Position numbers and translations under genes: made by a program. Below are positions 4,519-20,329 of a stretch of 64,000 nucleotides of DNA, piece by piece. The notes under the pieces are model-generated. The model was not told the DNA's origin, did not search any database, and saw only the letters and a list, made by a program, of their open reading frames with translations. Position 1 is the first letter of the stretch; each line of letters opens with the position of its first letter. The stretch is from Sphingomonadales bacterium (GTDB lineage: Bacteria; Pseudomonadota; Alphaproteobacteria; Sphingomonadales; Sphingomonadaceae): positions 434,001-498,000 of the forward strand of contig JAIXWO010000022.1 of assembly GCA_027491235.1 (NCBI GenBank), written 5' to 3'.

Positions 4519-4577
4519 TCGTTTCAGTTTAACCAGCGCCGAAATTGGCCGCCCGCATGGCGGACGGCCATCATCGC

Positions 4578-7500
4578 TTACTTCTTCTTTGGGACCCAAT
4601 CCGCAAAGGTCGGCTTATCGCTCACGCGGTAAAGGAAGCCGCTGCGGTTGCGATAGAAGCGTTCCATCTCTTCACGGTTGAACGGGCGTGAGCCCAAGCG
4701 GCCAAACACAGCCATCTGTCCGCCGGTTTCATCCACACCGCGATCCCGGTCGAGTCCCTTTGACATAGCGAGAGCAGGCGAGGGGGTCTTTGCCCATGCG
4801 ATCAGCTCCGGCTTGGGGGCCGGGGAGAAGCCATAGTAATTTGGCTGCGACGCCGGCGATGTGAGCTGCAGGACCTTCATGCCGTTGCGACCGTCCGCCA
4901 CATAGGCAAAGAGCGATGCATTGGTGGAGCCCACGATCACATCCTCAGCATCATTCAGCAGGCCGCCAAACGTCACCTTCTGGTAGATGGTCGGCTTTTC
5001 CGGGTTGGTCACGTTTAGAATTACGAGACCGTCCTGCTTGGCCGCAACATAAGCGTATGTCCTGGCAATGTAGATACGACGGGCGTTGCTGAGTGGTACT
5101 GTCGCTTCCGGAACAGGAACGATCTTGCGCGCATTGGTGATGTCGAACAGCTTCACACCGTCTTCATCAGTGACCCACAGATAGCGGAATTGGAGGGCAG
5201 ATGCCCGTGCTCCCTTGGCAGGGAGCACCTGCATGACACGGGGCTTGAGCGGATCGTTGAGATCAAGAACGACGACACCTGCATCCGCTGCGACATAGGC
5301 ATAATGCCCGCCGAGCGTGATGTGCGTTGCCCCCTTTAGGATGTTACCCTCATTCCATGTCAGCGCGCGACGAAGGAAGTTATTGCGCGGCTCACCATCA
5401 GCCAATGTGTTGATGTCGACAAGGATCAGACCTTCGACGCTGTCCGTCACAAATGCATAGTTATAGATCGGATGGAACGGTTGTTCCTGGTTCATGCTCC
5501 GCATTTCCGGCGTATTCTTCGCCGGGTTGATCGGCTGGTTGGTTGCCAGCGCCATGCAAGTTGCGTTGGTCGACTTCACCTGCGTGTCGTGGCCAAGCTG
5601 GGAGAAGGGGCCGGTCAGAATGCGTTCTGACACGCCCTTGTTTGCGACTGAGGCGATGTCATAGGCGCGGAAGCCCGCACGGCCTTCTGCAACATAGAGA
5701 TACTCTCCGCGCATCTGCAGACAACGGACGGCATCATCGGTGCCCTTCACCTCGTTACGGATGATTTCCTTGAGGCCGGTTTCACCGCTGAGCCGCTTGT
5801 CGAAGGATTTTCCGCGCGTCCAGTTGATGAGCTCGCGCTTATTCCGGTCGACATGGGCCTTGTAGAAGTCCGGATAAGCGTACTTCTGCAAATAGGATCC
5901 GAAGACGGCCTGAGGTTCGTCATACTCGGTGACGCGCACCGCTTCGACGCCGTTTTCCAGACCCGTCCATGCATACATGCCGACGAAATTGACGAAGTTT
6001 GTTCCCTGCAGGAGCAACTGGGCCATGATCGCGTTGTTGTCGTTATCCACCGACACATGGCAATCGCTACACTTCTTGGTCTCCGTCGTTCGGACGGTAT
6101 GCGGGAAGTGCGGTGCAAAGGCCTGCGATGAGAAGCCGACCGCAGAAATCGGCGGCTGCTGCACATAGATGCGTTCGCGGTTCACGTTGGTGGAGGACAG
6201 GATCAGGGCAGACGTCGATCGCACTGGCGTAATAATGTTGCCCTTAGTGGTCTGGTGGCGGCCAAGCTGGAACATGTCATCACGCGCGACTTGTGGGTTA
6301 TAGGTCGCAAAGTTGCGTGTCTCTTCACCCTCATATTTGTGGGATGTGGTCTTCCAGTTTGCCTCAATAGGCAGGTGGCAGCCGCCGCAGCTTGTCGTCC
6401 AGCTCAGATGGCAAGTGAAACATGCCATTTCGCTTTCCTTGTGCGCCAATTGATCGTCTGGAATGCCGGCGCCGAATTCAAACTTGCCGGTTTCAGAACC
6501 GGTTTTGGCCATCAGTTTTGATCGGGCAGCCTTCAGATTGAAATTCGGGCTATCCGGATCGACGCTGTCTTTGACGAGGCTCATGCGCCATTCCAGCTTA
6601 GGATCGAGCACGGAGCGCTGAACGAGATAGCGCTTCCCGTTATCGTCTTCCTTCCACTCAAAGCGGCGCTGGCCATCCGGATTGCGGATGAGCGAGAGGT
6701 TGTTGCCGCCGGGAGGGGCCGCAGGCCCTGAGGTCAGAAGCGTGGGGTCTGCTTTGCTCGTGCCATGGCAATCCTTGCAGCCAATCTCGATTGCATTGGC
6801 GACTTCACCATAGATGAGGCCATTGCCGTGGCTGTCCTGCGAGAAGTGGCAATCCACGCACTGCATGCCCTTTTCGGCATGGATATCCATCAGATGGACA
6901 GATTTTCCGGGGTTGGTGCCGATAGGAGGGAACTTGCCTTCACCCTTCCTTCGGAACTTTTCCGGATCGTCATACGCTACGACCTTGTCGTCGGCGTCGA
7001 GCAAATTGCCTTCACGGTCGCGCTTGAAAATCGCGCGGAAGTTCCAGCCATGACCATGATAATCCGCAAATTGAGTTTCTTTCGCCTGGGGATTGATATC
7101 TTCAGCCACGCGGCGGACGAAATCGACATCGGACCATTTCCCGCGAGGTGCAGCCCCTTCAGGGTTCCGATTTAGGACTTCATGCGTTTCAGCAGCCGTG
7201 GGGTATTTCTGCTTTTCCGGCCACATCAGTGGCGCGTCACTTTCATAGTCCCACATGGTGTAGCCAAGGAAAGAATTCAGGAAAATGTTCGGCTGATGCA
7301 TGTGGCAATTCATGCACTGCGCGGTCGGAATGGCGCGTGTGAAGGCGTGCTCAAGCGGGTGTCCGCTTTCCTTGCGCGGGTCAGGCGCATGGCTCTTTCC
7401 GTGCCCGTCGTCATGCCCAGATTTCTTTTCGCCGTGGCCGTGGACATCTCCATGCCCCTTGCCATGGCCCTTACCATGACTGTCGCCCAAGACCGCGCGC

Positions 7501-8621
7501 TTCTGCCCCTCCATCTTGTCAGCGATGGTTGGATCAAGCGTGAAGGTTTGTCCGTCATTGCCAAATTTGGCATAGGTCAGGCTCTGGGGTGCTTCCCGGC
7601 TGTTGGCATATGGCACGTGGCAGCTGGCGCAGCCCGAATGGCGATAATCGCCCGGCTGATCGTTCGTCCCCATGAACCAGGTGAAGGGATCGTTGAGGCG
7701 CGTCTTGTGGATGTTGAGCACCGGAATGGCGACGCGCAGGCCCGTACCGGGGCCTCGGTTGGACTGGCGAATGTCAGGACGGCCCGGTTCTTCCAAGCGC
7801 TGCAACTGGCCAGTCGAGTTCGGTAGCCCGACTTCAGGGAACTGCGTTCCGTTCGTGCGGCCACCGCGCTCGAACACGCGGAAAATGTCAGCCGGCGGAA
7901 CGACCTGCCATGTTGGCAGTGGGTAGAGTGCGGCGAGCGCGCCTCGTGCTTCCTGTTCCTTCGTTACGGTTCCGGGCGTGACCCCCGGTGACAGGATTTT
8001 CGCAGGCTCGCTTTTCTCGGTGTAAGCTTCGCCAAAAATGTAGTTTTTGAACGGGGCAATTCCGTTGTTGTACGCCGCACCACCCCATAGCATGGCGCCA
8101 GTCGACATGATGGAGCGGTCAGTCGCCTCAATCACCGACATGTGGCACGCGCCACACGAGTCCCGCACAACACGATAGTCGGACGGGTTGTTGAACCTTA
8201 CAAACTCCCGGCTTTCCTTGTTCAGAAGCGTGTAGCTCTGCTTCGGGTTGGCCGAAGACGGCCAGTTCCAAGCTTTGGGAAAGCGGGGCATGACATGCGC
8301 TTTGGACAGCGCGATCGTATAGGCTTTGTCGCCTTCTTTAGCGTTCTCGGGCGCAGATACTGTCGCGTTGCCGCCATGGCAGTCAGTGCAGCCCAACACG
8401 ACCGCTTCCGATCGGTGCATGCTATATGCGTCGGTCTTGGTGTGGCAGGACACGCAACCGATGCTTTTTGCCTTGGCCTGATCCGTCGTCTGTCCGGCGG
8501 GCGCCGCAGGAGCGCGGACAAGGGTGTAATCACGCGCCACCGGCTTCTCAGCATCAGAGGCGAGGAGACCGGACGGCACCATGAGCGCGATGACGAGGAG
8601 GAGGCGGGAAAGCAGTGACAT
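4578..8621 (-). CDS. Giant decaheme cytochrome c with LVIVD-repeat propeller
   Basis: 1347 residues, exported by a signal peptide of about 22 residues. Ten CXXCH heme sites start at Cys 56, 78, 156, 331, 436, 588, 615, 734, 745 and 851. A His/Gly-rich stretch at 382-411 (about ten His) sits between hemes 4 and 5 and may bind metal. Residues ~972-1256 carry at least six LVIVD-type beta repeats (pattern Y-A/L-Y/W-V-x-D/A-x-x-x-G-x-x-V/I-x-D/N), expected to close into a propeller. LVIVD repeats are typical of secreted or surface proteins, so a periplasmic end-station or outer-surface cytochrome is likely, probably with the porin-like protein encoded just upstream (start and stop share one base). 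No match to MtrC or OmcA is recognised. Last gene of the reverse-strand cluster; natural electron acceptor unknown. Confidence 0.88.
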   Translation of the reverse strand: MSLLSRLLLVIALMVPSGLLASDAEKPVARDYTLVRAPAAPAGQTTDQAKAKSIGCVSCHTKTDAYSMHRSEAVVLGCTDCHGGNATVSAPENAKEGDKAYTIALSKAHVMPRFPKAWNWPSSANPKQSYTLLNKESREFVRFNNPSDYRVVRDSCGACHMSVIEATDRSIMSTGAMLWGGAAYNNGIAPFKNYIFGEAYTEKSEPAKILSPGVTPGTVTKEQEARGALAALYPLPTWQVVPPADIFRVFERGGRTNGTQFPEVGLPNSTGQLQRLEEPGRPDIRQSNRGPGTGLRVAIPVLNIHKTRLNDPFTWFMGTNDQPGDYRHSGCASCHVPYANSREAPQSLTYAKFGNDGQTFTLDPTIADKMEGQKRAVLGDSHGKGHGKGHGDVHGHGEKKSGHDDGHGKSHAPDPRKESGHPLEHAFTRAIPTAQCMNCHMHQPNIFLNSFLGYTMWDYESDAPLMWPEKQKYPTAAETHEVLNRNPEGAAPRGKWSDVDFVRRVAEDINPQAKETQFADYHGHGWNFRAIFKRDREGNLLDADDKVVAYDDPEKFRRKGEGKFPPIGTNPGKSVHLMDIHAEKGMQCVDCHFSQDSHGNGLIYGEVANAIEIGCKDCHGTSKADPTLLTSGPAAPPGGNNLSLIRNPDGQRRFEWKEDDNGKRYLVQRSVLDPKLEWRMSLVKDSVDPDSPNFNLKAARSKLMAKTGSETGKFEFGAGIPDDQLAHKESEMACFTCHLSWTTSCGGCHLPIEANWKTTSHKYEGEETRNFATYNPQVARDDMFQLGRHQTTKGNIITPVRSTSALILSSTNVNRERIYVQQPPISAVGFSSQAFAPHFPHTVRTTETKKCSDCHVSVDNDNNAIMAQLLLQGTNFVNFVGMYAWTGLENGVEAVRVTEYDEPQAVFGSYLQKYAYPDFYKAHVDRNKRELINWTRGKSFDKRLSGETGLKEIIRNEVKGTDDAVRCLQMRGEYLYVAEGRAGFRAYDIASVANKGVSERILTGPFSQLGHDTQVKSTNATCMALATNQPINPAKNTPEMRSMNQEQPFHPIYNYAFVTDSVEGLILVDINTLADGEPRNNFLRRALTWNEGNILKGATHITLGGHYAYVAADAGVVVLDLNDPLKPRVMQVLPAKGARASALQFRYLWVTDEDGVKLFDITNARKIVPVPEATVPLSNARRIYIARTYAYVAAKQDGLVILNVTNPEKPTIYQKVTFGGLLNDAEDVIVGSTNASLFAYVADGRNGMKVLQLTSPASQPNYYGFSPAPKPELIAWAKTPSPALAMSKGLDRDRGVDETGGQMAVFGRLGSRPFNREEMERFYRNRSGFLYRVSDKPTFADWVPKKK

Positions 8622-10510
8622 CAGTATGACAAAACCGTGTTAAAAAGGACGGAATAGTGGCGTTTGTTGCCACTGGTGGTTGTGTAGAGGTCTTTGAATG
8701 CCGCTCCCGGTTCCAGCATGGCGCCGGAAAGACGGAACACGACGTTCTGGATCATGGAAGGCCTGTAAATCGCAGCTGCGGAGAGGTCCCAGCCGATGGC
8801 ACGGGGGATTGATCCTTCGTTGCGGAGTTCCCGGACAGTGGCTGTGTTGGCGAACCAGAGATGGTTGGCATTTGTGGATAGGCGGAATTGAGGCGTGATG
8901 TCGAAGTCCGCCCCGGCGCCGAGAAGGATCGTACCGGGATTGTTGAAATTGCTCTGCCCTTCATCCTTGGAGGAGCGAAGCGAATTGAGGACGCCGTTGC
9001 GGCCATTAATGCCGATGACACGCCCGCCGCCTGCAAAGGGAAGCGACTGACGGATCCAGTAGCTGGTGTCTGCACCGGCGAAGATCGGGTTTTCGACAAT
9101 GGCGTCAAATCCCGTTTCGCGATTGTCATATGGGTCATTGTCTCCAGTGGCGAAGAGCCCAGAGACGCGGAAACGCGCCCAATTTCTGTCGTAGCTTGCC
9201 TCGACTGCGGCAAAGCCAGCACGGATCTGGGCAGGCTTGCCGGTGAAGAAGCTGTTTCGGTCACTGCCAAGCGCGGCGTAAAGCGAGGTGGTGAGATTAA
9301 TCCGTCCCGCATGGCCATCTGCATTATAACCAAGATAGACCACGTCGTAATTTCGGCCGCGCAGATTGCCCAAAAGCGCCGGGCGGACCGGGAAGCCGTT
9401 ATCATCGATGTGGATGTTCTTGGCCTCGCGGTTCATGTTGTAAACCACGGTCAATTGGCTGGTGACGGCTGGGACGGGAAAGTCCTGCCGATACACATTG
9501 GCGAACGCGACCCAATCTTTGCGCGGCGTTTTGACCAGGCTGTTCAGGCCTGAGTTCGTGTCCTTTTCCAGCCGCCAGAAAACGCCATAATTATACTGGA
9601 CGCGGTTATTGTCGCGGTTGCCGAAATAGCGGATGCCAAGCTGCTGATCGTTAAACAGGAAGCCTCGGAAATCGGCCTGAAAAGGCTGAATGCCGATGCG
9701 GACGCTGTCAAAATCATATCGGTCAGAGACGTTACGCAAATGCTTGTCGAAAAACAGTTCCTGAACACCCAGGAAATGATCGAAGCGGTGGCTGCGGCGT
9801 GTGGGCTGAACGAAGAGCAATCGCCGCTCCGACACGTCGACAAAGGACGTGTTGAAGGCGAGGGCAATTTTATACTCGACATCTGGTGGCTTGAACGCTG
9901 TCGACCCCTTGAAGAGGGACGCTGCGGCAATGAAGGTTTGGGACGCGACGACGCTTGATGCCCGCCCGAAAACGTCCACATCGCCGACAGTTTCGTTCAC
10001 CTGACGCCCGACTGGCTGTGGGAAGCTGCGTGGCTCAACCACAGTATCGGAAATAAACGACGCAGCGAGGAACCAGTCCTCGCTCTTGATCGGCAGCCAT
10101 TTTGGCTTCTTGTGCAGATCAATCGGGCGGTCACCCTTATAGGTGTTCTGATTATACGGGTCCCACCAACGTTCCTTCACGATGCCAAGCGTCTGGATAA
10201 GACGCCAGCGATCAGGGATTGGCACTTGGTCGGTCGGAAAGGCTTCGGGCGGCGGCGCGCGGACAGCGCCGATGTTTTCCTGCGTAACCTTGTCCGGCAA
10301 CGGCCGTTCCCGACCGGGGATGCGTCGACCGACAATGAGCGCGCCGTCAGCATCGACCTCGAAAAGAGGCGGCAAGGCCTCACCGTCGGTAGCAACATCC
10401 GCAGGTGGCGGCGTGTCTAACGCAGGCGCTTCCTGAGCGGCTGCAATCTGCGGGCCGGCAGAGAGCAGAAGGAGTGGAAGCGGAAGGGTGCGTAGCCGCA
10501 TAGCGATCAT
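8621..10510 (-). CDS. Outer-membrane beta-barrel protein of the multiheme cluster
   Basis: 629 residues from the ATG at 10510, chosen because it overlaps the upstream gene's stop as ATGA; the frame is open further upstream but would lie inside that gene. A signal peptide (about 1-25, ending A-A-A-Q) is followed by a proline-rich linker and then many short alternating hydrophobic/polar strands rich in Tyr, Phe, Asn, Asp and Arg. The chain ends in a C-terminal tyrosine (N-T-V-L-S-Y), the usual outer-membrane barrel signature. I recognise no specific family. Placed between a lipoprotein and a giant multiheme cytochrome, it could form the barrel through which a cytochrome passes electrons, as MtrB and PioB do, but no homology to those is seen. 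Barrel call good; role inferred. Confidence 0.75.
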   Translation of the reverse strand: MIAMRLRTLPLPLLLLSAGPQIAAAQEAPALDTPPPADVATDGEALPPLFEVDADGALIVGRRIPGRERPLPDKVTQENIGAVRAPPPEAFPTDQVPIPDRWRLIQTLGIVKERWWDPYNQNTYKGDRPIDLHKKPKWLPIKSEDWFLAASFISDTVVEPRSFPQPVGRQVNETVGDVDVFGRASSVVASQTFIAAASLFKGSTAFKPPDVEYKIALAFNTSFVDVSERRLLFVQPTRRSHRFDHFLGVQELFFDKHLRNVSDRYDFDSVRIGIQPFQADFRGFLFNDQQLGIRYFGNRDNNRVQYNYGVFWRLEKDTNSGLNSLVKTPRKDWVAFANVYRQDFPVPAVTSQLTVVYNMNREAKNIHIDDNGFPVRPALLGNLRGRNYDVVYLGYNADGHAGRINLTTSLYAALGSDRNSFFTGKPAQIRAGFAAVEASYDRNWARFRVSGLFATGDNDPYDNRETGFDAIVENPIFAGADTSYWIRQSLPFAGGGRVIGINGRNGVLNSLRSSKDEGQSNFNNPGTILLGAGADFDITPQFRLSTNANHLWFANTATVRELRNEGSIPRAIGWDLSAAAIYRPSMIQNVVFRLSGAMLEPGAAFKDLYTTTSGNKRHYSVLFNTVLSY

Positions 10511-12450
10511 TTGCCTTGGCATACGTTTTGCGCCGCGGTGTCGAGGAAGGGCGCAAAGGGACATTGGGCATAGGGTAGGGCCGTGTTTCCAGCCTGCGGG
10601 AACAAGATGGCCGATGCGCGCAAGCTGCTCGGTGCATTGCCGATGCCGGAAATCTTCTCCGCAGCATTTGCAAGGCCGAGGAAGCTGATCATGTCATCCT
10701 GATCGATGCCATCTCCGGACGTTCCAATCGCTCCAATCAGCGTATTGCCGCGATAGATGGGTACAGCGCCCGGAAAGATTTGAATGCCGTTTTGAAGGCG
10801 GTTCTGGCCACCGGTAAAGGCGGGCAAGTTGGTGCACCGCGCCGGCGTATCCGTTTGGCTGGTGCCACCTACAAAAGCGAGATGCGCGGCCAAATCCCGA
10901 ACAATGAGCGCAGATTGCAGGCCGTTTGAGAAGGGACTGAATTGGCCCATGGGGCGGGACAGCGGGCCGTGCGGACGGTCGATCTGCCCATCTGGAAAAT
11001 AGGGGCGCGCCAAGAGACCGATCCAACGTGCGCTGATCGCCTTTTCACCCACCAGTTGCGACTGGTTGGAAAGGAAGGCCCGATAGGCTGTCAGATATTG
11101 GGAAACGTTGCTGTCGCTCGTCCCTTGAAGGTCGGATGCGGCTCCGGGGTTCGAGAAGAAGGCTGCAGTGCGGGCCTTTTGAAGCGAGACGTCAATCCCA
11201 AAGACCGGCGCGTCGGGAGAACGGACTTGCCCAAGCACGACGCCATTGGAATCAACGACAGAAACGGTCACTTCGGCCCTGCTGTCGAGCGGCTTGCGAA
11301 TTTGTGCCCGCGCCCGCTTCACGATGCGGAAGGCTTCTTCAAGGATTGTCCTGACCTCAATCGGCGTCAACGCCGACAGCGTTTCAGATCCCGCACGAAT
11401 GGGGAAACGGGCACTGCCTTGCCCGTTGGTGAGGAGGAACGCGTCGCTGTCTGAAAACTCGGCGCTCGTCGCCCGCCGGATGCCGGAGGCTTCGGTACCA
11501 TAAGGGGTGCCGGCTGTAATGACGGCATTGGCATATCCCGGAACGGCGACGAGCGACCCGGCAGTGCCTGCGAGTGCCGCGAAAGAGCGCGCTGGGCCGC
11601 GGGCCACTAGGCCTGTGGATGCCGCGTCCGCAAAGCGCAGGAAAGTCCCGTCGACGGAGATTCGGCCTGCCTGAATAGCTTCTGGCGCGGCAAAGCCCGT
11701 TGTTCCGGCGAGGGCGATAAACTCTTCATCGTCCTGATCGATGTCTAGCGTTGAAGGATCAAAACCATAGTCGCCATCGGCCATGATGCCGATCCCACCA
11801 ACGACCACGCCGTTTTTATAGAGAGGGAGACCGCCTGCATCTGCAGCCATCCCAAGTGGGGAGCGTTTCGGACCAATAGCGGCTTGGCCGAAGCGTGCGC
11901 TGAGGTCCGAGCAGGGCAACTGGCTAAACTGCACGCCAAAGAGCGGGCCGCTCTCAAGTCCGACCGTGCTTGGTCCGGGCGGAAAATGCTCCTGAACAAT
12001 TTGACTGGCGGTCCGCGTGGAAAAGGCATTCCCGCTCGACGATAGATAGGCGGCCGTGACGGCTTTGGCGATGGCGGCAGCTGTCGCTGGAACTGTCAGA
12101 TTCTGGGCGTCCGCGCTCTGACCATTGGAAGCCGCGCGGGTAACGGTTGTGGACCGCGCGCCGGTCATATTAAAGACGCCAAGGACATTGCCGACGCGAT
12201 CGACCACGGCAATCGTTGCCGGCAATCTCCGGGCAGACGCTTCTTCAATCGCCTGTGCGAGGATTTGCTCGACTTCCGCCGTTGTTAAAGCCTCGATCGT
12301 GCTGGCGGGATAGCTGCTGGTCGAGCCGATTGTCGTCGTCGGCGCAGATGTGGCCGCGGAGGTGCTTTCACCGGATCCGGGTCCGCAACTGGCGAGCAGA
12401 AACCCACTCAGAACAAGAGTTGATACTGGCTTAAACTGCCAAGGCCTCAT
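10507..12450 (-). CDS. Lipoprotein with two HbpS/GlcG-like (DUF336) domains
   Basis: 647 residues. The lipobox L-L-A-S-C places the lipidated Cys near residue 22, followed by a Ser/Thr-rich linker. Two copies of the heme-degrading/HbpS-GlcG fold can be seen: one from ~53 (T-T-A-E-V-E-Q-I-L-A-Q-A then I-A-V-V-D-R-x-G-N-V-L-G) and a second from ~355 (L-T-P-I-E-V-R-T-I-L-E-E-A then V-S-V-V-D-S-N-G-V-V-L-G). Each copy ends in a G-G-I-G-I-M-A-D-G-D or G-A-I-G-T-S-G-D-G-I-D-Q-D-D motif. Known HbpS proteins bind heme and sense redox stress; other members have unclear roles. Here a periplasm-facing lipid-anchored heme or cofactor binder between cytochromes is likely. It is translationally coupled to the pentaheme gene upstream (TAATG) and the barrel downstream (ATGA). 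Confidence 0.8.
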   Translation of the reverse strand: MRPWQFKPVSTLVLSGFLLASCGPGSGESTSAATSAPTTTIGSTSSYPASTIEALTTAEVEQILAQAIEEASARRLPATIAVVDRVGNVLGVFNMTGARSTTVTRAASNGQSADAQNLTVPATAAAIAKAVTAAYLSSSGNAFSTRTASQIVQEHFPPGPSTVGLESGPLFGVQFSQLPCSDLSARFGQAAIGPKRSPLGMAADAGGLPLYKNGVVVGGIGIMADGDYGFDPSTLDIDQDDEEFIALAGTTGFAAPEAIQAGRISVDGTFLRFADAASTGLVARGPARSFAALAGTAGSLVAVPGYANAVITAGTPYGTEASGIRRATSAEFSDSDAFLLTNGQGSARFPIRAGSETLSALTPIEVRTILEEAFRIVKRARAQIRKPLDSRAEVTVSVVDSNGVVLGQVRSPDAPVFGIDVSLQKARTAAFFSNPGAASDLQGTSDSNVSQYLTAYRAFLSNQSQLVGEKAISARWIGLLARPYFPDGQIDRPHGPLSRPMGQFSPFSNGLQSALIVRDLAAHLAFVGGTSQTDTPARCTNLPAFTGGQNRLQNGIQIFPGAVPIYRGNTLIGAIGTSGDGIDQDDMISFLGLANAAEKISGIGNAPSSLRASAILFPQAGNTALPYAQCPFAPFLDTAAQNVCQGK

Positions 12451-13856
12451 TAGAGGGCCCCAATCGCGTTGCTAGCCCGCGACAACGCAGCCCTGAATGC
12501 TGCAGGCTGGTAGCCATATGGATCTTTGACGGCGGCGTAGGCGCGGTTGATCTCAGCGCGGATCGAGGCCGCCTGTCCGGCAGACACAGATCCATTGTTC
12601 ACCAATGCATTTAGGAGTGTGTCGACAGCCATCACGGCCTGCGCGCTGCCATCATAGTCAGTGTAGCGGGGACGCATGGCTGAATCGCTGATGGTGGCCA
12701 CAAGCGCCTTGATATCCCCTGATGAGAAGCGCTTGCCCCCGAACGCCGCCAAGAGCGCATTCGTGGTGCTGCGAAGCCGAGCAGCTGCTTTCAGCGCCTT
12801 AGGGCGATCGCTGGCAAGGGCCGCGTGGAAGGCTTTGCTGTCCGCATCAAAACGTTGGGCCAGGGCAGGGGATGTCCGTCGCGCAGCAGCGCTGAGCATG
12901 ATCATGTTGCCATCACTGAAGGGCGCCATACCGCGCGGAATAGGACGACCTGGATTGGCTACAGCTGCAGCCCGGAAGGATGGATCGTCGGAAATACGGC
13001 GATGGCAGCTGTGGCAATCGAAGAAGTAGTATTCAGGAAAGATGCCTTCCTGACCAAGCCCGGCATCGGACCAGAGGGAAAGGGCGCGATCAAGCGCAAC
13101 AGCTTGTCCGACCGCCCAATCCTGAACCGGGTCGCGCTTCCCCTTGCGGCGCACATAGTCCGCATCTTCGTTATGATGGGCCTGAAGGCCTGTGAAAAGG
13201 TCCAGTTCAAAGGTCACGCGGGGGTGTCCCGCTGCCATGATCCGGTGGCTGACGAACTGGCCGGGCTTTGCCGAGCCAAAATGACAATCGAGGCAATTTG
13301 AGGCGCGGCTTTTCGGGTCGCTCAAAGGGATCATTCCCTGAGCAATGTTCCGCTGAGGACTGGCGCCGACGGCATAGTGGCTGCTGATCCACCCTGACGC
13401 TGCACCGTGGCAGGATTCGCAGCCCACACCGTCGGAAAGCTGATGTTTCGGGCCTGTCGCACTTGCATTGTCGCTGTGGCAGCCGAGGCACATTGGGGCT
13501 GTTTCAGCTGAGGCGAGGCCGAGGTTGCGGGCAATGGCCGCAGAGCGCGCCGTGCCGAGTGTGCGGAAGGCGCGGCTATGGGCGCCGGATGTGGAGGAGT
13601 CCTCCTGCCAGCGCAGCAGTTCATCCTGACGGACGACAGCGCCGTCGGCGACCTGACGTCCGTGGCAGGTTGAGCCAGCGCAGCTTGCGACCCCCAGATG
13701 CACGTTTTGAGCGACATCGGTTGCTGTCGCAGGTTGCGCGCCAGCCAGCATGACATAGGCGGCAGCGCCGATCGTCAGGATGGCAAACAGAAAACCAAAT
13801 AGGCGCGTAAATCCGCCTGATGAAGCGCCACTCTGGACGGGATCCGAACTGCCCAT
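12450..13856 (-). CDS. Pentaheme cytochrome c (cytochrome c554/c'-like)
   Basis: 468 residues from the ATG at 13856, preceded by a G-rich ribosome site (GGGGGCG). An upstream in-frame ATG at 13919 would add 21 residues with no hydrophobic logic. A single hydrophobic segment lies at about 20-42, acting as signal or membrane anchor. Heme sites: an unusual C-A-G-S-T-C-H (CX4CH) near residue 59, then CLGCH, CESCH, CLDCH and CHSCH, giving five. A CX4CH first site is seen in tetraheme c3 cytochromes and in several c554-like families, so it is probably functional. The C-terminal ~170 residues are helical and heme-free. It is probably the periplasmic relay between the inner-membrane cytochrome and the outer-membrane module, and opens the four-gene transcript running to 4578. 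Confidence 0.85.
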   Translation of the reverse strand: MGSSDPVQSGASSGGFTRLFGFLFAILTIGAAAYVMLAGAQPATATDVAQNVHLGVASCAGSTCHGRQVADGAVVRQDELLRWQEDSSTSGAHSRAFRTLGTARSAAIARNLGLASAETAPMCLGCHSDNASATGPKHQLSDGVGCESCHGAASGWISSHYAVGASPQRNIAQGMIPLSDPKSRASNCLDCHFGSAKPGQFVSHRIMAAGHPRVTFELDLFTGLQAHHNEDADYVRRKGKRDPVQDWAVGQAVALDRALSLWSDAGLGQEGIFPEYYFFDCHSCHRRISDDPSFRAAAVANPGRPIPRGMAPFSDGNMIMLSAAARRTSPALAQRFDADSKAFHAALASDRPKALKAAARLRSTTNALLAAFGGKRFSSGDIKALVATISDSAMRPRYTDYDGSAQAVMAVDTLLNALVNNGSVSAGQAASIRAEINRAYAAVKDPYGYQPAAFRAALSRASNAIGAL

Positions 13857-14140
13857 GAAAACGCCCCCAAATTGGCCATTATGAAATTGCCAAGCCCCCC
13901 TCGCCAATTTCCCAAACAAAGCGCGAAAACTGAAGAGAATCAGGGCCGCGGCATCATCCGGTCAGCAACTCGCTAGTGGAGAGTTGACTACCCAGAGGGT
14001 TGCGGAAAATATCGAGAAAAATCAAGTAAATCGCTGGATTGTTTATGCCGAAATGGAGGGGATAAGCGGCCAAGGTGGGAGGTGCCACTCGAAGGGCATC
14101 GCCGAAAAGGATCGGTCTCAATCTGTTTGGGCGATCTCGA
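13857..14140. promoter_or_regulatory. 284-base upstream region of the pentaheme-to-decaheme operon
   Basis: No gene is seen. The region must hold the promoter for the four-gene unit starting at 13856. An 8-base inverted repeat (AAATTGGC at 13869-13876, GCCAATTT at 13903-13910) sits just upstream of the ribosome site and would fold in the leader. Further up, at 14012-14025, is TCGAG-AAAA-ATCAA, where only the right half matches an FNR-type half site (ATCAA) and the left half is 3 of 5. I cannot assign a -35/-10 pair with confidence. Confidence 0.4.
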
Positions 14141-14983
14141 TTAGGTGTTCGGCACTAAACTTTGGACCAAGGGCTGCAAAGAGGCATCAAAACGAGCCAA
14201 CGTCGGATAATCGCCGGCCGTCTGGAAAAAGGTGACTAAGGCATCACCTGTCCAGTGATGAAGCGAGTAGCCCGGCTCTTCTGCCACGATCATCGGCCGA
14301 TTGTCTGGATTGGACGGATCGATTGGCGCGAGTTCCAGCGCCACTTGTGGGGCTGAGGATCCGGTGACGGCCAAAAGGTGCGTTTCAAAAGTCGTGGTGA
14401 AGGGGCGGTGGACATGGCCTGCCAACATTGCCCGAATATTGCTGCGGTTCTTCAGAACGCCGGAGAGTGTTTTGATCCATTCCGCATTTGGTTCCACATC
14501 CATCCATTCGATACCGTGCCGGACAGGTGGGTGGTGAAGGGCGATGACAACAGGCCGTTCCGAACACGCGTCCAGCGTGGCCGAGAGCCAGGCCGCCCGT
14601 CTTTCGCAAAAGGCGCCACCATGTTCGCCGGGCTCAAGAGTATCGAGCACAACAAGCACAAACGAACCCTTTTCGACGGCATAATGGACAAAGCCATCGC
14701 TTGTCGGCGTATCAGGAAAAACTTCTCGAAAGTTCTCACGCTCATCGTGATTGCCGATGCAAAGATGTGTTTCACATGGGGCGACCGTCAGCGCCTCTTT
14801 CAGCTGCCTATAGCTGCCAACATCGCCTTTGTCGGTAAGGTCGCCTGTGCAGATGAGCATGTCAGGCAGGGGTGTCATGGCGCCCAATTTCAGGAGAATG
14901 GCATCAAGTCGCTGGCGATTAAATTCTCTGGGATTATCGGGTTCAAACCCCAGATGAATGTCAGTAATTTGCGCAATCAGCAT
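14141..14983 (-). CDS. Metallophosphoesterase, cyclic-nucleotide phosphodiesterase (CpdA-like)
   Basis: 280 residues, cytoplasmic, no signal peptide. The full set of calcineurin-type metal ligands is present: D-x-H (Asp8, His10), G-D-L-T-D-K-G (Asp48), G-N-H-D (Asn78, His79), H-H-P-P near 151 and G-H-V-H near 190-193. The D-I-H-L-G...G-N-H-D-E-R layout is that of class III cyclic-nucleotide phosphodiesterases, which hydrolyse 3',5'-cAMP with Fe/Mn. Its place between the FHA-cytochrome gene and the pentaheme gene, in a cluster whose flavoprotein has two cyclic-nucleotide-binding domains, suggests it tunes the ligand of that protein. It has its own gap on each side (227 and 284 bases) and could be transcribed separately. 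The exact substrate is not proven; related enzymes act on other phosphodiesters. Confidence 0.82.
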   Translation of the reverse strand: MLIAQITDIHLGFEPDNPREFNRQRLDAILLKLGAMTPLPDMLICTGDLTDKGDVGSYRQLKEALTVAPCETHLCIGNHDERENFREVFPDTPTSDGFVHYAVEKGSFVLVVLDTLEPGEHGGAFCERRAAWLSATLDACSERPVVIALHHPPVRHGIEWMDVEPNAEWIKTLSGVLKNRSNIRAMLAGHVHRPFTTTFETHLLAVTGSSAPQVALELAPIDPSNPDNRPMIVAEEPGYSLHHWTGDALVTFFQTAGDYPTLARFDASLQPLVQSLVPNT

Positions 14984-15153: not shown

Positions 15154-15210
15154 AAGGAGATTTTTTTTGAGCTGAATTGGCGCCAATGATTTCGCACGTT
15201 TCGCGCGCCC

Positions 15211-16998
15211 TTATCCGGTCGTTGTACCCCGCCACTTTTGAACTGCCGTCGTTTTCGGCCCGGTTGCGGCGGGTTTCGATTTCAAAGGATCTTCGAAGTG
15301 ATACCCGTGGCACATGGAGCAGGTCGACGGCACCTTATCATGCTCCGGAGTGGCACCCGCATGGCAGCTCTGACAGGATTTAATGCCCGGCATCAAAACG
15401 TCAGCCGCGCTCTTCGACTTCGGTGCCGTGTGGCAGCTTTCACATTTCGACGTGTCATGCGCCTTATGATCGAACCAGGCCTTTGGCATATAGTATTTCG
15501 GCACGGAGACTGGCTTGATCGTGAAGTTCAGGCTTGCCGGATTGGCAGGGGCTACGACCTGATGGCATTCATAGCACGCGCCACCCTGTGAAAAGACGCG
15601 ACGGATGGCCGCATCAGGGCTTGAGCTTCCGACATCGAAGCGCGGTGTGGGGCGGCTGCTTCCGGGAACGTGTCTTCCCTGAAGGAACCCGTTGCCCGCC
15701 GGATTTTGAGGACCAACGCCGCGATACAGAGCTCTGATCTGAGCGATGGTCTGCGGAACATCGCCATGACGTAGGGTAAGAACCGTACTTCCAACCTTTC
15801 CAAATCCGAGGCTGTGGCAAGCGCCGCAGTTCTTTTCCATCTCGACCGGGACAAAGGTTGATTTGTCGGCGGATGCGGTATGACAATCACTGCATTTCAG
15901 GCCCGCGCTTCCCGCGCCTTTATAGGCAGGGAGTGTCATCGCCATTTTCGCGACACCGTTTGTGGACGACAAATGCAAAGCATGGGGGAACTTCAGGCCC
16001 GTGTTTTCCTTTGGTTTTGAAGCAAGGGAGATACGCTGAATTGTCGGCGGTTCGCCGGGAGATGTCACAATTGATGGGCGGAACTCGGGATGATCCTTCG
16101 CGAAATCGCCAACGTCGAGAAGTTTGGTTGTCTTGACCCGTGTGCTCAAACCGACATGGCAATCGGTGCAGAAGCGCTGCGGCGTTGGCGGCGCGGAGAC
16201 GGCACCTTCATGCTCCATATGGCAGTCGACACAGCTATTTTCAGGCCGATTGAACATGCGGGATGTCGCATTCAACACTTGTCGGAATGGATTGGGCTCA
16301 CCCTTGGCACCCATCAGGCTTTTGGGGTCGGCGTGGTCGTGCACTTTGGTATGACAGGCAACGCAACTGCTGTCGCGCACCGATTCAAAGGCGTTTACGT
16401 GGCAGGCCTGACAATCCTTTGCCAAAGAAGCATGGCCGAGCGAGAGTTTGCCGGACGACCAGCTTTGGTCTGCGTGAAATGTATCCGCGCGGCTTTTGGC
16501 CATATGGAAGTTAGACCATGTCCAGATCGGCCAGACCAGCAGGGTCGCGAGAATCGTGACAACCAAGATCCACGCAGGGAGGCGCATTTTGCCGCCGGCC
16601 TTGCCGAGGGAAAAGACAAACTTGCTGTCTTTGGCTTCGCTGGAATCGGCCACAGCGCTTTTGCGTTCCACGCGGATGGCCACATCTTCTGCGGTGCGGC
16701 TGATGATGAATTCATGGCTACCAAAGTTGATAACGGCACCATCGCCGCGACCAATCTTCAAGGTGGTGACGCTGCGACCGTTGGCCATAAAGGGCGCGCC
16801 TGCGATTGCGTCTACCGAGATTGTCCCATCCGCGTTGGCTGTAATGCGGGCATGGTCGAGCGGCACCGACACGTCGGGCAGGGCAATGTCACAGCTGGGG
16901 CCGCGGCCAACGGACAGTGTCGGTTGGTCATAGTCCTTCGACCGGATGATTTCGCGGCCGTCATTCGTGAAGCTGACGTGGTGAACGGTAAAAATCAT
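15211..16998 (-). CDS. FHA domain - membrane helix - decaheme cytochrome c fusion
   Basis: 595 residues from the ATG at 16998, eight bases after the previous stop with GGTGA as ribosome site. An earlier ATG at 17031 lies inside the upstream gene. Residues ~1-110 form an FHA fold (G-R at 31-32, D-H-A-R-I near 48-52); a membrane helix spans ~142-160; then come ten CXXCH sites at Cys 196, 212, 256, 277, 369, 391, 475, 519, 542 and 560. With the N-terminus inside, the FHA domain faces the cytoplasm and the hemes the periplasm. The canonical Ser-Arg-x-His of phosphothreonine binding reads P-L-D-H here, so phosphopeptide binding may be lost or altered. It probably takes electrons from the neighbouring di-heme b membrane protein and passes them to periplasmic cytochromes. 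Third gene of the unit starting at 20329. Confidence 0.88.
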   Translation of the reverse strand: MIFTVHHVSFTNDGREIIRSKDYDQPTLSVGRGPSCDIALPDVSVPLDHARITANADGTISVDAIAGAPFMANGRSVTTLKIGRGDGAVINFGSHEFIISRTAEDVAIRVERKSAVADSSEAKDSKFVFSLGKAGGKMRLPAWILVVTILATLLVWPIWTWSNFHMAKSRADTFHADQSWSSGKLSLGHASLAKDCQACHVNAFESVRDSSCVACHTKVHDHADPKSLMGAKGEPNPFRQVLNATSRMFNRPENSCVDCHMEHEGAVSAPPTPQRFCTDCHVGLSTRVKTTKLLDVGDFAKDHPEFRPSIVTSPGEPPTIQRISLASKPKENTGLKFPHALHLSSTNGVAKMAMTLPAYKGAGSAGLKCSDCHTASADKSTFVPVEMEKNCGACHSLGFGKVGSTVLTLRHGDVPQTIAQIRALYRGVGPQNPAGNGFLQGRHVPGSSRPTPRFDVGSSSPDAAIRRVFSQGGACYECHQVVAPANPASLNFTIKPVSVPKYYMPKAWFDHKAHDTSKCESCHTAPKSKSAADVLMPGIKSCQSCHAGATPEHDKVPSTCSMCHGYHFEDPLKSKPAATGPKTTAVQKWRGTTTG

Positions 16999-17005
16999 GA
17001 GCGGA

Positions 17006-17884
17006 TCACCAATAGAAGAAGACGCTGACAACGTGCGCCGTCAGGGCCGCAATCAGCGCGAACGTCACAGGGACGTGGAAATAGAGCCAAATCTCAAGCT
17101 GTGCCTTCAACTGAAGATGCCGCCGAATATTGGAAAGCGCGGTCACCTTGCGCGACAGCAGCTGAGCTGCACGCACGATGTCATCCACATTGTCGGTTGC
17201 TCTCGATCGCGACGCCGCACCAACCGTTTCAAAGGCGTATTGCGTCGGGCAGGAGGGGTATTGGTTCTTCAAACGCGCGAGGATGGAACCCGCGAACGGA
17301 TCGTCGTTGAGCGACGCGCCGATGATATTGGCCAATTCTGTGCTCAATGGCTGCGTTGCGTCGTGCAACTGCCGGTCGATGCTGCGCAGATTGTCGAGCA
17401 TTTCGACCTGCGTCATGTCGCCCCGGTTGGAACTGAGTTGTTTGGGCAGGATGGTGTAGGCGCAAATGCCATAGATGCCCGAAAGGATGACGATCATCAT
17501 TAAGACATAGGCGAGCGTGTGGACGTTCCAGCCGAACTGGAATGCACAGTGGAGTGTCGCAACAACAATCAGCGACACGCCGAGCCAGACGTGCGCGGAC
17601 ACCCAAGATTTGAGGGTCCACTGACCGGGCTTGATGGAACGTTTGCGCCAGCCGAGAAGGGCAAGCCAGAGGATGAGAATGGCGCCGATCGTGCCGAGCG
17701 TGTAGCCATACCAACTGTTCCCGCTGTGGCGCGGTTCGACGTCGATAAGGGCGTAGATCAGTATCGTGAGCGCAGAAAATCCGGCTGCGATTTTGAGCCA
17801 ACGGTAATCCGCATATTTCAAAAACGACACGTGGCTCGATGGCCCGGAACGTTTCGCGGCCTTGTTACGGGCGAAAAATGCCAT
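17006..17884 (-). CDS. Five-helix membrane protein, putative di-heme b cytochrome
   Basis: 292 residues. Hydrophobic segments lie at about 31-48, 60-78, 95-115, 123-146 and 265-288, with a ~115-residue soluble, charged, helical region between the fourth and fifth. His98/His112 lie on helix 3 and His270/His284 on helix 5, each pair 14 residues apart. This is the spacing used by b-type cytochromes to hold two hemes, one near each face, between two helices; His122 opens helix 4. I do not recognise a named family. Position between a cytoplasmic flavin/Fe-S protein (stop three bases upstream) and a membrane-anchored decaheme cytochrome (downstream start eight bases after its stop) fits a transmembrane electron carrier. 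Heme binding is inferred from His geometry only. Confidence 0.68.
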   Translation of the reverse strand: MAFFARNKAAKRSGPSSHVSFLKYADYRWLKIAAGFSALTILIYALIDVEPRHSGNSWYGYTLGTIGAILILWLALLGWRKRSIKPGQWTLKSWVSAHVWLGVSLIVVATLHCAFQFGWNVHTLAYVLMMIVILSGIYGICAYTILPKQLSSNRGDMTQVEMLDNLRSIDRQLHDATQPLSTELANIIGASLNDDPFAGSILARLKNQYPSCPTQYAFETVGAASRSRATDNVDDIVRAAQLLSRKVTALSNIRRHLQLKAQLEIWLYFHVPVTFALIAALTAHVVSVFFYW

Positions 17885-17887
17885 GGC

Positions 17888-20329
17888 CTAGTCGCCCTTC
17901 TGCATGTGAGAAACGCTCAGGAACTGTTCCGGCGAAATGCGGATGGCAGCGCCGGTGGGGCAGGCGCGTACGCAGCTTGGGCCACCTTCTAGGCCCGCGC
18001 ACATGTCGCACTTAATCGCCTTTTTCGGGGCTTCCGGATTGCCATGTTTCTTGGCCCATTTGGCATTGGGTTCGCCGGGGCCAGGGCCGCTGCCGAACAA
18101 CAGCCAGTTGAGAAGCGGCGGCTTTTTCGGCGGCACCTTGTCCATGCGGATCACGCCATAAGGGCAGCCACGCTGGCAATTTCCGCAACCGATACAGGTG
18201 TCGTCAATGAAGACTTCCCCGTCCATCCCACGGTGGATCGCGTTCGGCGGGCAATCGGCCATGCAATGCGGGTGTTCACAGTGGCGGCAGGAAGTCGGGA
18301 CATGAAGATGGGCGTAGGTCTTGCCCGCTTCACGGTCCAAACGGGACAACCCATCATGGCTGTCGGCACACGCCTTTTCGCAATTGTCGCAACCGACACA
18401 AAGCCGTTCATCGATGAGCAAAACGTCGGTTGCTTCGCCGATACCGTTTTCGACAAGGAAGCTCGCAACCGACGAATACATGTCTGCAACGTCAGAGAAG
18501 GTGCTCTTCATCGTTTCGATATGTGCGTTGACGTCCTTGCGCGTCGCCATGTCGATCTTGAGACGCTCGAGGAGCGCCGGATTGCGGTCGAGCAAGCCGC
18601 GGAACGCATCGCCGTTGAGCTTGATGACTTCGGATTTCACCGCAGCGCGGACTGACGCTGTTCTGCGTCCGCCCTCAATCAACGCCATTTCGCCGACATA
18701 TGAGCCGGCGGGCAGGTAAGAAATGAACACCGTTTTCCCGGCGATGGTCCGCTCCACGACCATAGACCCGACGCGAATGACGTAGATGTCGTAACTCTCA
18801 TCACCTTCGGCAATGATGGACTCACCGGCACGGACGCTGATTGTCTCGGCGCTTTCAACGACCCCTGCGATGTCAGATGGACTCAAGCCGGCCTTGAAAA
18901 GCTGAAGCAACTGGCGCTCGATCGAAACGCGCGTCACGGCCCGCTTCACAGCCGGCACGGTCGCAATCAGCTTCAACGCAGCATTGCGGGGGATTTCCAT
19001 CAGGATGCTGTCTTCAGCCGCGACCACCGTGGCACCGCGTTTGCGGCCGGAAATTAGCCCGACTTCCCCAAACATCGCGCCTGTGCCGATGGGGACAACA
19101 ATGCTTGGATCGCTAGGGTTCACTTGGACATGGACACTGCCGGAGGCGACATTGAACAGAGAGGAACCGGGGGCCCCGCGTTCAAAGATGACATCTCCCT
19201 TGCTGACAAAGCTCACGTCGCTGTCGAGCGTGAATTCACGCATTTGCAGCGGGGTAAGATCGCGCAGGATGTCTATTTCCGTGCGCAGCAGGTCCAGCCA
19301 TTCATCGACGGATCGCTTGCCGGGTAGCTTGCTGAACTTGGCTTCGAGAATTGGTTCATCGGCGGGCTTGAGATTGGTGTTGCCGTTGATGAATTCGACA
19401 ACGTCATAGCCCTGGTTCATGCAGTGCTTGATGAGGGGGTAGCCGGCAAGGGCGCCAATCACGAAGATGCCGGGCGCTGTCGATTCAAACACGGGTGAGA
19501 GGATAGGGAAGGCTTCCCGATCCTTGCTGCTGAATTCAATGCCGCAGCTTTCCACAAAACCTCGGGGTGGTGCTGAGCCCATGCGCGCAATGATGCGGTT
19601 GCACGGGATACGCAATTCACCGTCACGCGTGTCGAGCACGATGTGGTCAGGTTCGATCCGGTTGGTCGACGTTTCCGTCAGGATGGTGATGCGGCCTTCT
19701 TCAGCCGCAGACGTCAGGGCTTTGACGTTGGCGTCTTTTGCGCGGCTGAAATCTGCCGAGCGATTGACGATCGTCACGACATTGCGCTGCTCAGGGTCTG
19801 CTGCGAGGCCTAAAGCGTTTTCAATCCCGGCGTCGCCCGCGCCAATGACGGTAATGTGTTCGTCTAAGATGGCCGTCGGATCGTCGAGCTGATACTCGAC
19901 ATGCGGAAGATCACCGCCCGGACACCGCATGAGGTTTGGATTTCCCTGGGTCCCGATGGCAAGGATAACAGTCTCGGCGGAGATGGTGTCGCCATCGGCC
20001 AGTTTGATAGTGAACGCTCCCGGGGCGCCGGTGATGGCCGTCACTTCCGACCGATAGCGGACCTGCACGTTTTGGCTGGCGGCCTGATCGTTCCAAGTTT
20101 GAAGAATTTTCTCGCGCTTGCCGGCGTCAAAATCAAAGTCCGAGCGCAGCACCAACTGGCTCGGCGTCGCCATGACGTGCTTGCCCTTTTGGTACCGGAA
20201 AATCGTATCAGAGAGGTGATCCGTCTTTTCCAGAAGGACGTGCGCCATCCCAAGCTGCGCTGCACGTGCAGCTGCACTTAATCCCGCCGGACCTGATCCG
20301 ACAATTGCCACCTTATAGGTGCTCGTCAC
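17888..20329 (-). CDS. FAD/NAD(P) oxidoreductase - two cNMP-binding domains - four [4Fe-4S] fusion
   Basis: 813 residues from a GTG at 20329, with GAAGG before it. Domain order: FAD-binding Rossmann motif G-S-G-P-A-G at 11-16; NAD(P)-binding motif G-A-G-D-A-G at 163-168; FAD closing motif ~288-312; first cyclic-nucleotide domain ~360-460 (phosphate cassette F-G-E-V-G-L at 420-425, Arg431); second ~475-600 (V-G-E-M-A-L at 545-550, Arg556); ferredoxin part ~638-805 with CxxCxxCxxxC at 644-654, CxxCxxxxCxxxC at 681-693, CxxCxxCxxxC at 712-722 and CxxC...CxxxC at 774-790, enough for four cubanes as in NrfC/DmsB subunits. No CxxC lies in the flavin half, so it is not a thioredoxin reductase. No signal peptide: cytoplasmic. 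Likely NAD(P)H dehydrogenase feeding the membrane b protein, gated by cyclic nucleotides. Confidence 0.9.
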   Translation of the reverse strand: MTSTYKVAIVGSGPAGLSAAARAAQLGMAHVLLEKTDHLSDTIFRYQKGKHVMATPSQLVLRSDFDFDAGKREKILQTWNDQAASQNVQVRYRSEVTAITGAPGAFTIKLADGDTISAETVILAIGTQGNPNLMRCPGGDLPHVEYQLDDPTAILDEHITVIGAGDAGIENALGLAADPEQRNVVTIVNRSADFSRAKDANVKALTSAAEEGRITILTETSTNRIEPDHIVLDTRDGELRIPCNRIIARMGSAPPRGFVESCGIEFSSKDREAFPILSPVFESTAPGIFVIGALAGYPLIKHCMNQGYDVVEFINGNTNLKPADEPILEAKFSKLPGKRSVDEWLDLLRTEIDILRDLTPLQMREFTLDSDVSFVSKGDVIFERGAPGSSLFNVASGSVHVQVNPSDPSIVVPIGTGAMFGEVGLISGRKRGATVVAAEDSILMEIPRNAALKLIATVPAVKRAVTRVSIERQLLQLFKAGLSPSDIAGVVESAETISVRAGESIIAEGDESYDIYVIRVGSMVVERTIAGKTVFISYLPAGSYVGEMALIEGGRRTASVRAAVKSEVIKLNGDAFRGLLDRNPALLERLKIDMATRKDVNAHIETMKSTFSDVADMYSSVASFLVENGIGEATDVLLIDERLCVGCDNCEKACADSHDGLSRLDREAGKTYAHLHVPTSCRHCEHPHCMADCPPNAIHRGMDGEVFIDDTCIGCGNCQRGCPYGVIRMDKVPPKKPPLLNWLLFGSGPGPGEPNAKWAKKHGNPEAPKKAIKCDMCAGLEGGPSCVRACPTGAAIRISPEQFLSVSHMQKGD

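Follow-up and report, generated by a model that had tools for sequence, protein, structure and literature searches.

A conserved gene cluster of Sphingomonadaceae and their relatives encodes a putative multihaem electron chain with cyclic nucleotide-binding input

Results

Eight minus-strand genes encode a candidate trans-envelope electron chain

The stretch of DNA analysed here, a window of 64,000 nucleotides (nt) from a genome of 3.39 Mb, carries at positions 4578-20329 a cluster of eight genes, A to H, whose closest named relatives are found in the Sphingomonadaceae. All eight are open reading frames on the minus strand. H (17888-20329; 813 amino acids, aa) combines an NAD(P)H/FAD domain like that of thioredoxin reductase (TrxR) and YpdA with two cyclic nucleotide (cNMP)-binding domains and four cysteine sets of the [4Fe-4S] type, and G (17006-17884; 292 aa) is a five-helix membrane protein with two histidine pairs, 98/112 and 270/284. 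F (15211-17031; 606 aa) joins an FHA-like domain to a decahaem domain through a single helix at residues 151-169, while E (14141-14983; 280 aa) is a cyclic nucleotide phosphodiesterase of the metallophosphatase type, similar to SpdA and CpdA. D (12450-13919; 489 aa) is a pentahaem, c554-like cytochrome with an N-terminal hydrophobic helix at residues 40-58; C (10507-12450; 647 aa) is a predicted lipoprotein with HbpS-like domains; B (8621-10564; 647 aa) is modelled as an 18-strand outer-membrane barrel with an AlgE/OprD-type fold; and A (4578-8621; 1347 aa) is an exported decahaem cytochrome with LVIVD repeats in its C-terminal part.

An earlier reading of the same DNA, made from its letters (the original prediction), had described H as a cytoplasmic FAD/NAD(P) fusion with two cNMP-binding domains and four [4Fe-4S] clusters, G as a five-helix protein with two histidine pairs 14 residues apart, E as a CpdA-like phosphodiesterase, D as a pentahaem cytochrome, B as an outer-membrane barrel and A as a secreted decahaem/LVIVD cytochrome, with 25 c-haem sites in all. 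These assignments hold on the evidence given below for each protein, and those of C and F hold in part. The genes, their strand and their place also agree with that prediction. However, the eight genes that it gave as one series form two tight blocks, H-G-F (a gap of 3 bp and an overlap of 26 bp) and D-C-B-A (overlaps of 1, 58 and 1 bp), with E set apart from its two neighbours by 227 and 221 bp, and linked genes extend beyond 4578-20329.

The genes are inherited together in two different orders

Among 149 genomes of the family, A was found in 53, B in 53, F in 52 and H in 52, and these are the same genomes except for G022, a 67% complete genome with A and B in which F and H were not found. 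The co-occurrence holds even where the halves D-C-B-A and E-F-G-H have moved apart: A and F lie less than 20 kb from each other in 27 of the 52 genomes, on the same contig at 32 kb to 2.2 Mb in 14, and on different contigs in 11. Six genera (g15, g35, g37, g72, g78 and g79) each include a carrier as well as a genome without the set. Across 398 genomes of the phylum, probably Pseudomonadota, B occurs in 12 and H in those 12 plus three more; B is absent from these three, which carry either H-G-F or, as a second copy, H by itself. Of 274 genomes from a second class, probably Gammaproteobacteria, 12 carry A, and H is present in all 12.

The gene run in this second class is a different one, H-G-F-C-B-A-D, seen in four loci (L048, L176, L179 and L183). 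Both copies in G637 have H several kb from G-F-C-B-A-D with a cyclase in between, L178 is without D, and the other second-class loci are cut by contig or region ends.

Gene order was also compared in 80 named loci, the best of at least 593 public-genome stretches with a relative of A. By title, nearly all are alphaproteobacterial (L118 is given only as "Proteobacteria"). Contig ends truncate many of them, which makes the gene counts in this set lower bounds. B is present in 76, C in 69, D in 67, E in 57, F in 55, G in 52 and H in 49, and all eight genes are present in 41. Where present, D, C, B and A share one orientation in 80/80 loci; E, F, G and H are coherently oriented in the 58 loci showing any of them and run opposite to A in 57, while in the window all eight point the same way. 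Mirror-tree correlations of 0.77-0.91 had no outside control and are not used as support.

The original prediction had set the co-occurrence of the eight genes as a syntenic block as a test of itself, and this was borne out both in the 149 family genomes and in a second class. A chance grouping of genes is ruled out because of the co-occurrence and the two distinct gene orders. As judged from gene content and order, A-H is one conserved system, in which the gene runs, the H-G fusions described below and the H-G-F copies without B identify H-G-F as a core that also exists alone and D-C-B-A as the outer half.

H and G form a predicted electron entry module

Pfam matches in H comprise Pyr_redox, two cNMP_binding domains and 4Fe-4S domains. 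CXXC motifs occur only from residue 644 onward, in the Fe-S part, where 16 cysteines fall into four sets; the flavin domain has none. In 48 H proteins (the window copy and those of 47 named loci), the second Rossmann strand is followed by the motif NRxxxFxxAK. Since this motif resembles HRRxxFRAxK, the NADPH-binding motif of thioredoxin reductase, NADPH is the likelier electron donor of H.

G has six hydrophobic windows, two of which overlap, giving five helices. Its histidine pairs, H98/H112 and H270/H284, are each 14 residues apart and invariant in 21/21 members (17 alphaproteobacterial and 4 from other lineages), a pattern that likely provides for two b-haems across the membrane. G falls below the Pfam cut-offs for Ferric_reduct (PF01794; 19.5 versus 28 bits) and cytochrome b561 (16.5 versus 30.1 bits), and a PF01794 match at E 0.01 was obtained in 3 of the 21 members. 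G181 and G297 (loci L154 and L153), which belong to the same genus, encode H and G as a single fused protein. Together with the domains, this fusion backs the proposed route from NAD(P)H through flavin, Fe-S clusters and b-haems to F, as an inference from domain content.

Three further arrangements of these genes were seen. At L152 (G149; 2469-9962), by eye, H stands without G and F near a class III cyclase that is large and carries other sensor domains. At L154 (G181; 3864-6255), also by eye, genes resembling those for dissimilatory sulphite reductase subunits are found a few kb away from the H-G fusion and F. At L185 (G678; 1096-5209) the cluster is accompanied by genes, named by eye, for a separate NqrF-like reductase, a c554-like cytochrome and a protein that combines two cNMP-type domains with Fe-S motifs; this set is perhaps H in split form.

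Three cytochromes carry 25 conserved c-haem sites

There are ten CXXCH sites in A, four in D and ten in F, and D has in addition one CX4CH site (CAGSTCH, residue 80), for a total of 25. These haem sites are not due to chance, because shuffled A, D and F sequences gave a mean of only 0.005-0.03 CXXCH. When orthologues from the named loci were compared (here and below, at least 85% coverage and an intact frame), A had ten CXXCH in 78/79 and nine in the remaining one, F had ten in 51/51, and the CX4CH of D was kept in 48/48. The F protein of L154, which lies outside the 51, has nine by count.

Pfam matches in A are to LVIVD and multihaem families. The window copy shares 59-71% identity with six relatives, the lowest value belonging to one from the second class, and all ten CXXCH are invariant across these seven sequences. 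The N-terminus of A is signal-like and no further hydrophobic helix follows. A is also the most conserved of six proteins measured, with a mean pairwise distance of 0.24 versus 0.51 for F over 22 loci. Its best relative of solved structure by sequence had an E-value of 0.78, and a profile search gave none at 0.1. D has a structural relative in cytochrome c554 (1bvb, E 0.0027).

No NCBIfam model for nitrite, tetrathionate or selenite enzyme families scored above its own cut-off. Homology to a known nitrite or tetrathionate reductase had been named beforehand as a finding that would count against an electron conduit; with no model over its cut-off and no significant solved relative of A, membership in any of these enzymes is unsupported.

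F matches multihaem Pfam families and was predicted to be a membrane FHA-decahaem protein with FHA input. The helix, the ten haems and an FHA-like domain are there, but the scores for FHA (20.3 bits, cut-off 20.7) and YscD-type FHA (29.4 bits, cut-off 33.2) are both just below their cut-offs. Phosphothreonine-binding FHA domains have a Gly-Arg and a Ser-x-x-His motif. In an alignment of 52 F proteins, the Gly-Arg is present in 52/52 and the His in 50/52, while the position three residues before the His is Glu in 36, Asp in 7, Ala in 3, Thr in 3 and Pro in the window copy; among six non-alphaproteobacterial F proteins inspected by eye, Ser stands there in L178 and L154 and is absent in the other four. 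The full motif of phosphothreonine-binding FHA domains is thus not kept across F proteins, and since its Ser is not conserved, phosphothreonine binding, and with it the predicted FHA input, appears doubtful.

B is modelled as an AlgE-like barrel with conserved outside loops

An AlphaFold model of B, built with 51 sequences (mean pLDDT 66.5), has 18 strands by our own count. The best match in fold is AlgE (Z 26.5; root-mean-square deviation 3.1 over 369 residues; 12% identity), and B also resembles OprD-type porins (Foldseek E 9e-16). By sequence, no significant relative of solved structure was found, and the window copy matched no Pfam family, including none for a barrel of the MtrB/PioB type; 4 of the 51 members matched Alginate_exp (PF13372) weakly (best E 8.7e-4). 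MtrB is not among the 50 fold matches listed for B, which by itself excludes nothing. A C-terminal Tyr or Phe in 63/63 orthologues agrees with the barrel assignment.

Conservation of B averages 0.81 in the outside loops, 0.78 in the strands and 0.83 in the inner turns. A 73-residue loop at 473-545, placed outside by numbering the strands from a periplasmic N-terminus, reaches 0.88 and is modelled with low confidence. Since the loops of porins usually vary while these are conserved, the model suggests that a fixed partner or plug at the outside of B is likely. A multihaem cytochrome threaded through the modelled 18-strand barrel cannot be assumed.

C had been described as a lipoprotein with two HbpS-like domains. 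A loose lipobox pattern is present in 60/67 orthologues and the HbpS-like match was recovered, although it covers three stretches rather than two.

Cyclic nucleotide-binding pockets are kept and class III cyclases are linked to the cluster

The cNMP-binding family PF00027 matches H above its cut-off (123.3 bits) over two stretches. Across the 48 H proteins the phosphate-pocket Glu is kept in 48/48 and 47/48 for the two domains and the Arg in 48/48 in both. Both pocket motifs are also present in five of six non-alphaproteobacterial H proteins (L047, L151, L152, L153 and L154); in the sixth, L048, the first is present and the second misses the pattern by one residue, reading as the same by eye. 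E has a Metallophos domain with the phosphodiesterase motifs TDIH, GDL, GNHD, HH and GHVH, and scores 134 bits, below the cut-off of 400, against the SpdA model NF050112 (2',3'-cyclic nucleotide phosphodiesterase).

A class III cyclase is encoded in 53/53 family genomes that carry A versus 10/96 that do not (Fisher p 1.4e-30, with kinship ignored), at a mean of 2.1 cyclases per carrier genome, and lies within 30 kb of A, B, F or H in 42 of the 53. The window's own genome has three, and the catalytic domains of two of them are 4.7 and 16 kb from A, left of the window. Cyclase domains were found in 27 of the 80 named loci (28 with a wider query) versus about 1.5 expected from three cyclases per 3.39 Mb, as in the window's genome, over the 1.69 Mb searched. 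A CHASE2 cyclase stands directly upstream of D on the same strand in 16 named loci, and between A and E in L127 and three Phenylobacterium loci (L123, L132 and L133). In the second class, a cyclase lies within 25 kb in 5 of the 12 carriers (G505, G637, G688, G765 and G775). Taken together, the kept pockets and the cyclase linkage support the predicted gating of electron entry, in the sense of control by cyclic nucleotides.

Cytochrome maturation genes, cyclases and a secretion pair flank the cluster

On the left, positions 1-144 on the plus strand hold the last codons of a GAF-GAF-PAS class III cyclase of 763 aa that starts before the window (contig 431853-434144, equal to L174:13854-16145). 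Directly after it comes a membrane protein of the PycTM family, a Pycsar effector family (147-713, plus strand). The PADLOC models PycC and PycTM match this pair, which looks like a Pycsar-type cyclase and effector. PycTM relatives recur near the cluster in 8 of the 80 named loci, and their membership in the cytochrome system is uncertain.

A MEKHLA-domain protein (PF08670; 717-1187, opposite strand) separates PycTM from three plus-strand genes for cytochrome c maturation, namely a CcmF/NrfE-like haem lyase (1486-3426), a CcmG-like redoxin (3423-3950) and CcmH (3950-4339). Ccm genes are also near the cluster in L035, L052 and L157, in part in L046, and in only one of the 80 named loci (L108). 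Gene I (20468-21391, plus strand), divergent from H, encodes a CcmI/CycH-like TPR protein and is present in 46 of the 80. It is possible that the CcmF/G/H and CcmI-like set is dedicated to the CX4CH site of D. Further right, at 21498-24345, are genes named by eye as glutamate dehydrogenase and aldehyde dehydrogenase; relatives of the latter occur in 23 of the 80 named loci, often directly upstream of D.

The region left of the window encodes, in order, a CHAT-TPR protein, a small protein, a CHASE2 cyclase, TpsB, TpsA (2345 aa) and a GAF-PAS cyclase; the first two lie at L174 17-2724, and the small protein has no Pfam family. On pMSHV of Sphingobium herbicidovorans the order is a CHASE2 protein, a hypothetical protein, a ShlB-type TpsB, a 6.3-kb TpsA-like gene, the D-C-B-A block, two small genes and then E-F-G-H reversed, and the cluster is annotated with general labels only (for example hypothetical protein, multiheme c-type cytochrome, cytochrome c3 family protein). 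Among 20 family regions chosen for a nearby cyclase, so that only the TpsA/TpsB count is informative, TpsB and TpsA lie between the cyclase and the D-C-B-A side in 14, with D inside 11 of those 14, and relatives of the small protein of unknown family stand beside the CHASE2 cyclase in 20/20. The 80 named loci, which have short flanks, show TpsA or TpsB in only 4 and CHAT in 12. Because so few show TpsA/TpsB, and the CHASE2 cyclase is directly upstream of D in 16, this two-partner secretion (TPS) pair is not a constant part of the system. The flank in L048/L155 holds, in order, a TPR protein, FecR, a large lipoprotein, a metallo-beta-lactamase, a CHASE2 cyclase and a cNMP-MscS channel.

Discussion

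We propose, with a probability of about 0.6, that the cluster encodes a cyclic-nucleotide-switched line that would export electrons to an acceptor lying beyond the outer membrane or directly under it. The proposal is built on what the sequences show, namely which domains and conserved ligands are present, how the genes are ordered and inherited together, and how cyclases are linked to them; from this we infer the order and direction of transfer, the sign of the switch, the place of A and the acceptor. A sensor cyclase of the CHASE2 or GAF type would make cAMP or cGMP, which phosphodiesterase E would remove, and nucleotide in both pockets of H would open or close the flow from NADPH to FAD and the four Fe-S clusters. 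The two b-haems of G would carry electrons across the inner membrane to the decahaem domain of F, from which they would pass through the pentahaem D to the decahaem A at the outer membrane, where A would act on the acceptor in concert with C, the lipoprotein, and B, the AlgE-type barrel. Since the source looks like NADPH rather than the quinol pool, and since the named cultured carriers are regarded as aerobic heterotrophs, we expect the line to serve in the processing of an acceptor, in redox balancing or in chemistry at the surface, and not in respiration.

The original prediction went further, to a complete path from cytoplasm to exterior. The part from the cytoplasm to F stands on the domains, but the crossing of the outer membrane is unsupported, B being an 18-strand AlgE-like barrel in the model. 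In its stronger form, our proposal would make A-H a new class of trans-envelope conduit, in which a cyclase-switched NADPH dehydrogenase would feed b-haems and then 25 c-haems, and electrons would reach an outside acceptor by way of an AlgE-type barrel and a decahaem/LVIVD protein on the surface, in many cases connected with a secreted TPS filament. This form is a tentative one that we would not expect to prove right, even if it has a real chance.

Several observations weigh against a switched export line. In fold, the best matches of B are of the AlgE/OprD type rather than a known conduit barrel, and the AlphaFold model of A is of low confidence over residues 24-945 (pLDDT 36). Regarding the switch, 11 of the 53 family carriers have no cyclase within 30 kb, with all cyclases on other contigs in five and at least 120 kb away in six. 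Cyclase presence does not discriminate in the second class, where 11/12 carriers and 13/20 non-carriers (20 of 262 non-carriers were tested) have one, and E was not found in the second-class gene runs. G726, a 99% complete second-class genome, has A and H and no class III cyclase; therefore, the switch differs there or the nucleotide has another source.

The fold of B leads to the strongest competing explanation, a periplasmic reductase with its own porin, in which A would be the terminal reductase or an electron store, B would import the substrate and no electrons would pass the outer membrane. Besides the 18-strand AlgE/OprD porin fold (Z 26.5; Foldseek E 9e-16), the conservation of A, highest of the six proteins measured, is as expected for an enzyme, and its signal-like N-terminus without another hydrophobic helix would suit a periplasmic protein. 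Against this, PMC6315138, on an LVIVD surface protein of Methanosarcina, describes these repeats as a typical feature of proteins at the cell surface. In B, the loops on the outside match the strands in conservation and loop 473-545 exceeds them, suggesting that a fixed partner or a plug sits there; C resembles a lipoprotein, and a TpsB/TpsA pair lies upstream of D-C-B-A in 14 of the 20 chosen regions. On this balance we consider a periplasmic reductase unlikely, if well worth keeping in mind.

The direction of flow is not fixed by sequence, and multihaem lines are in principle reversible; the Pio and Mto systems run inward, and the original prediction allowed for such a course with an extracellular donor. 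A could then take electrons from an outside donor and pass them through D, F and G to H, making NADPH or a signal. However, uptake to NADPH via b-haems would need a low-potential donor or the membrane potential, and the parallel with the b-haems of NADPH oxidase and ferric reductase would point outward, making inward flow improbable. Least credible, and in our judgement very improbable, is a redox sensor whose cytochromes report the outside redox state to H, with nucleotide binding setting the expression of adhesin or other genes. In its favour are the linked sensor cyclases, the TPS adhesin pair that is linked as well in many of the family loci, and the CHASE2 cyclases fed by an outer-membrane barrel known in Sinorhizobium (PMC13001267). 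However, a sensor would not need as many as 25 haems and a complete NAD(P)H dehydrogenase, and no DNA-binding or kinase domain is among the 25 of 30 Pfam matches of H that were listed.

The cluster is apparently undescribed. No publication on it was found among the open-access papers listed, and no Pfam or NCBIfam model scanned covers it as a conduit. PMC12055684 deals with cytochromes other than those of A-H, and PMC5192318 with a CHASE2 histidine kinase operon. Relatives of A are present in the at least 593 public-genome stretches, named isolates included, and the set is found in about a third of the sampled family genomes (53/149). If the switched export line is correct, an electron-transfer chain would be switched directly by a cyclic nucleotide, with NADPH its likely source, in bacteria presumed to be plain aerobes. 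If export is proved, this would be a new class of conduit in bacteria not known to use one. Taken as a whole, the widespread gene set seems to specify an electron wire that leads out of the cytoplasm to 25-haem machinery of the outer envelope.

Among known systems, MtrCAB and PioAB join an outer-membrane barrel of 26 or more strands to multihaem cytochromes. The A-H cluster likewise pairs a barrel with multihaem cytochromes, the last of them decahaem, but B matches no barrel of that kind in Pfam and is modelled with 18 AlgE-type strands, the electron source is NAD(P)H, Fe-S clusters and b-haems rather than a quinol dehydrogenase, and cyclic nucleotide domains are present. The original prediction recognised no homologue of these conduits, and none was found in NCBIfam scans or in Pfam scans, the latter including 51 B members. 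The NCBIfam models ExtM, ExtN and ExtO presumably represent the Ext conduits of Geobacter; A has local ExtM matches of 74 bits, far from the cut-off of 800, and ExtN and ExtO gave 26-27 bits versus 200, which does not place the cluster among them.

The inner half recalls ferric reductases, NADPH oxidases and cytochrome b561 in that G has two histidine pairs 14 residues apart on two helices and the source is a pyridine nucleotide plus FAD. In contrast to them, G has five helices and scores under the Pfam cut-offs, and, in contrast to ferric reductase and NADPH oxidase, the flavin domain of H is TrxR/YpdA-like and Fe-S clusters lie between flavin and haems. That domain shares its fold with YpdA and thioredoxin reductase (TIGR04018, 130.3 bits), but it stays below the TIGR04018 cut-off of 339.9, contains no CXXC and is fused to cNMP and Fe-S domains. 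B, for its part, has the barrel fold of the alginate exporter AlgE (Z 26.5, and weak PF13372 matches in 4/51 members), at 12% identity, with cytochromes as neighbours and no Pfam match in the window copy. The nearest precedent for the signal is a route in Sinorhizobium meliloti from CHASE2 cyclases and the outer-membrane barrel NsrA to Clr (PMC13001267); it too has a CHASE2 cyclase, an outer-membrane barrel and a cyclic nucleotide-binding effector, although Clr is a transcription regulator and H an oxidoreductase. Judged by its sequences, A-H appears to be a variant of the trans-envelope multihaem electron chain, and it would stand as a new class of its own if export were proved.

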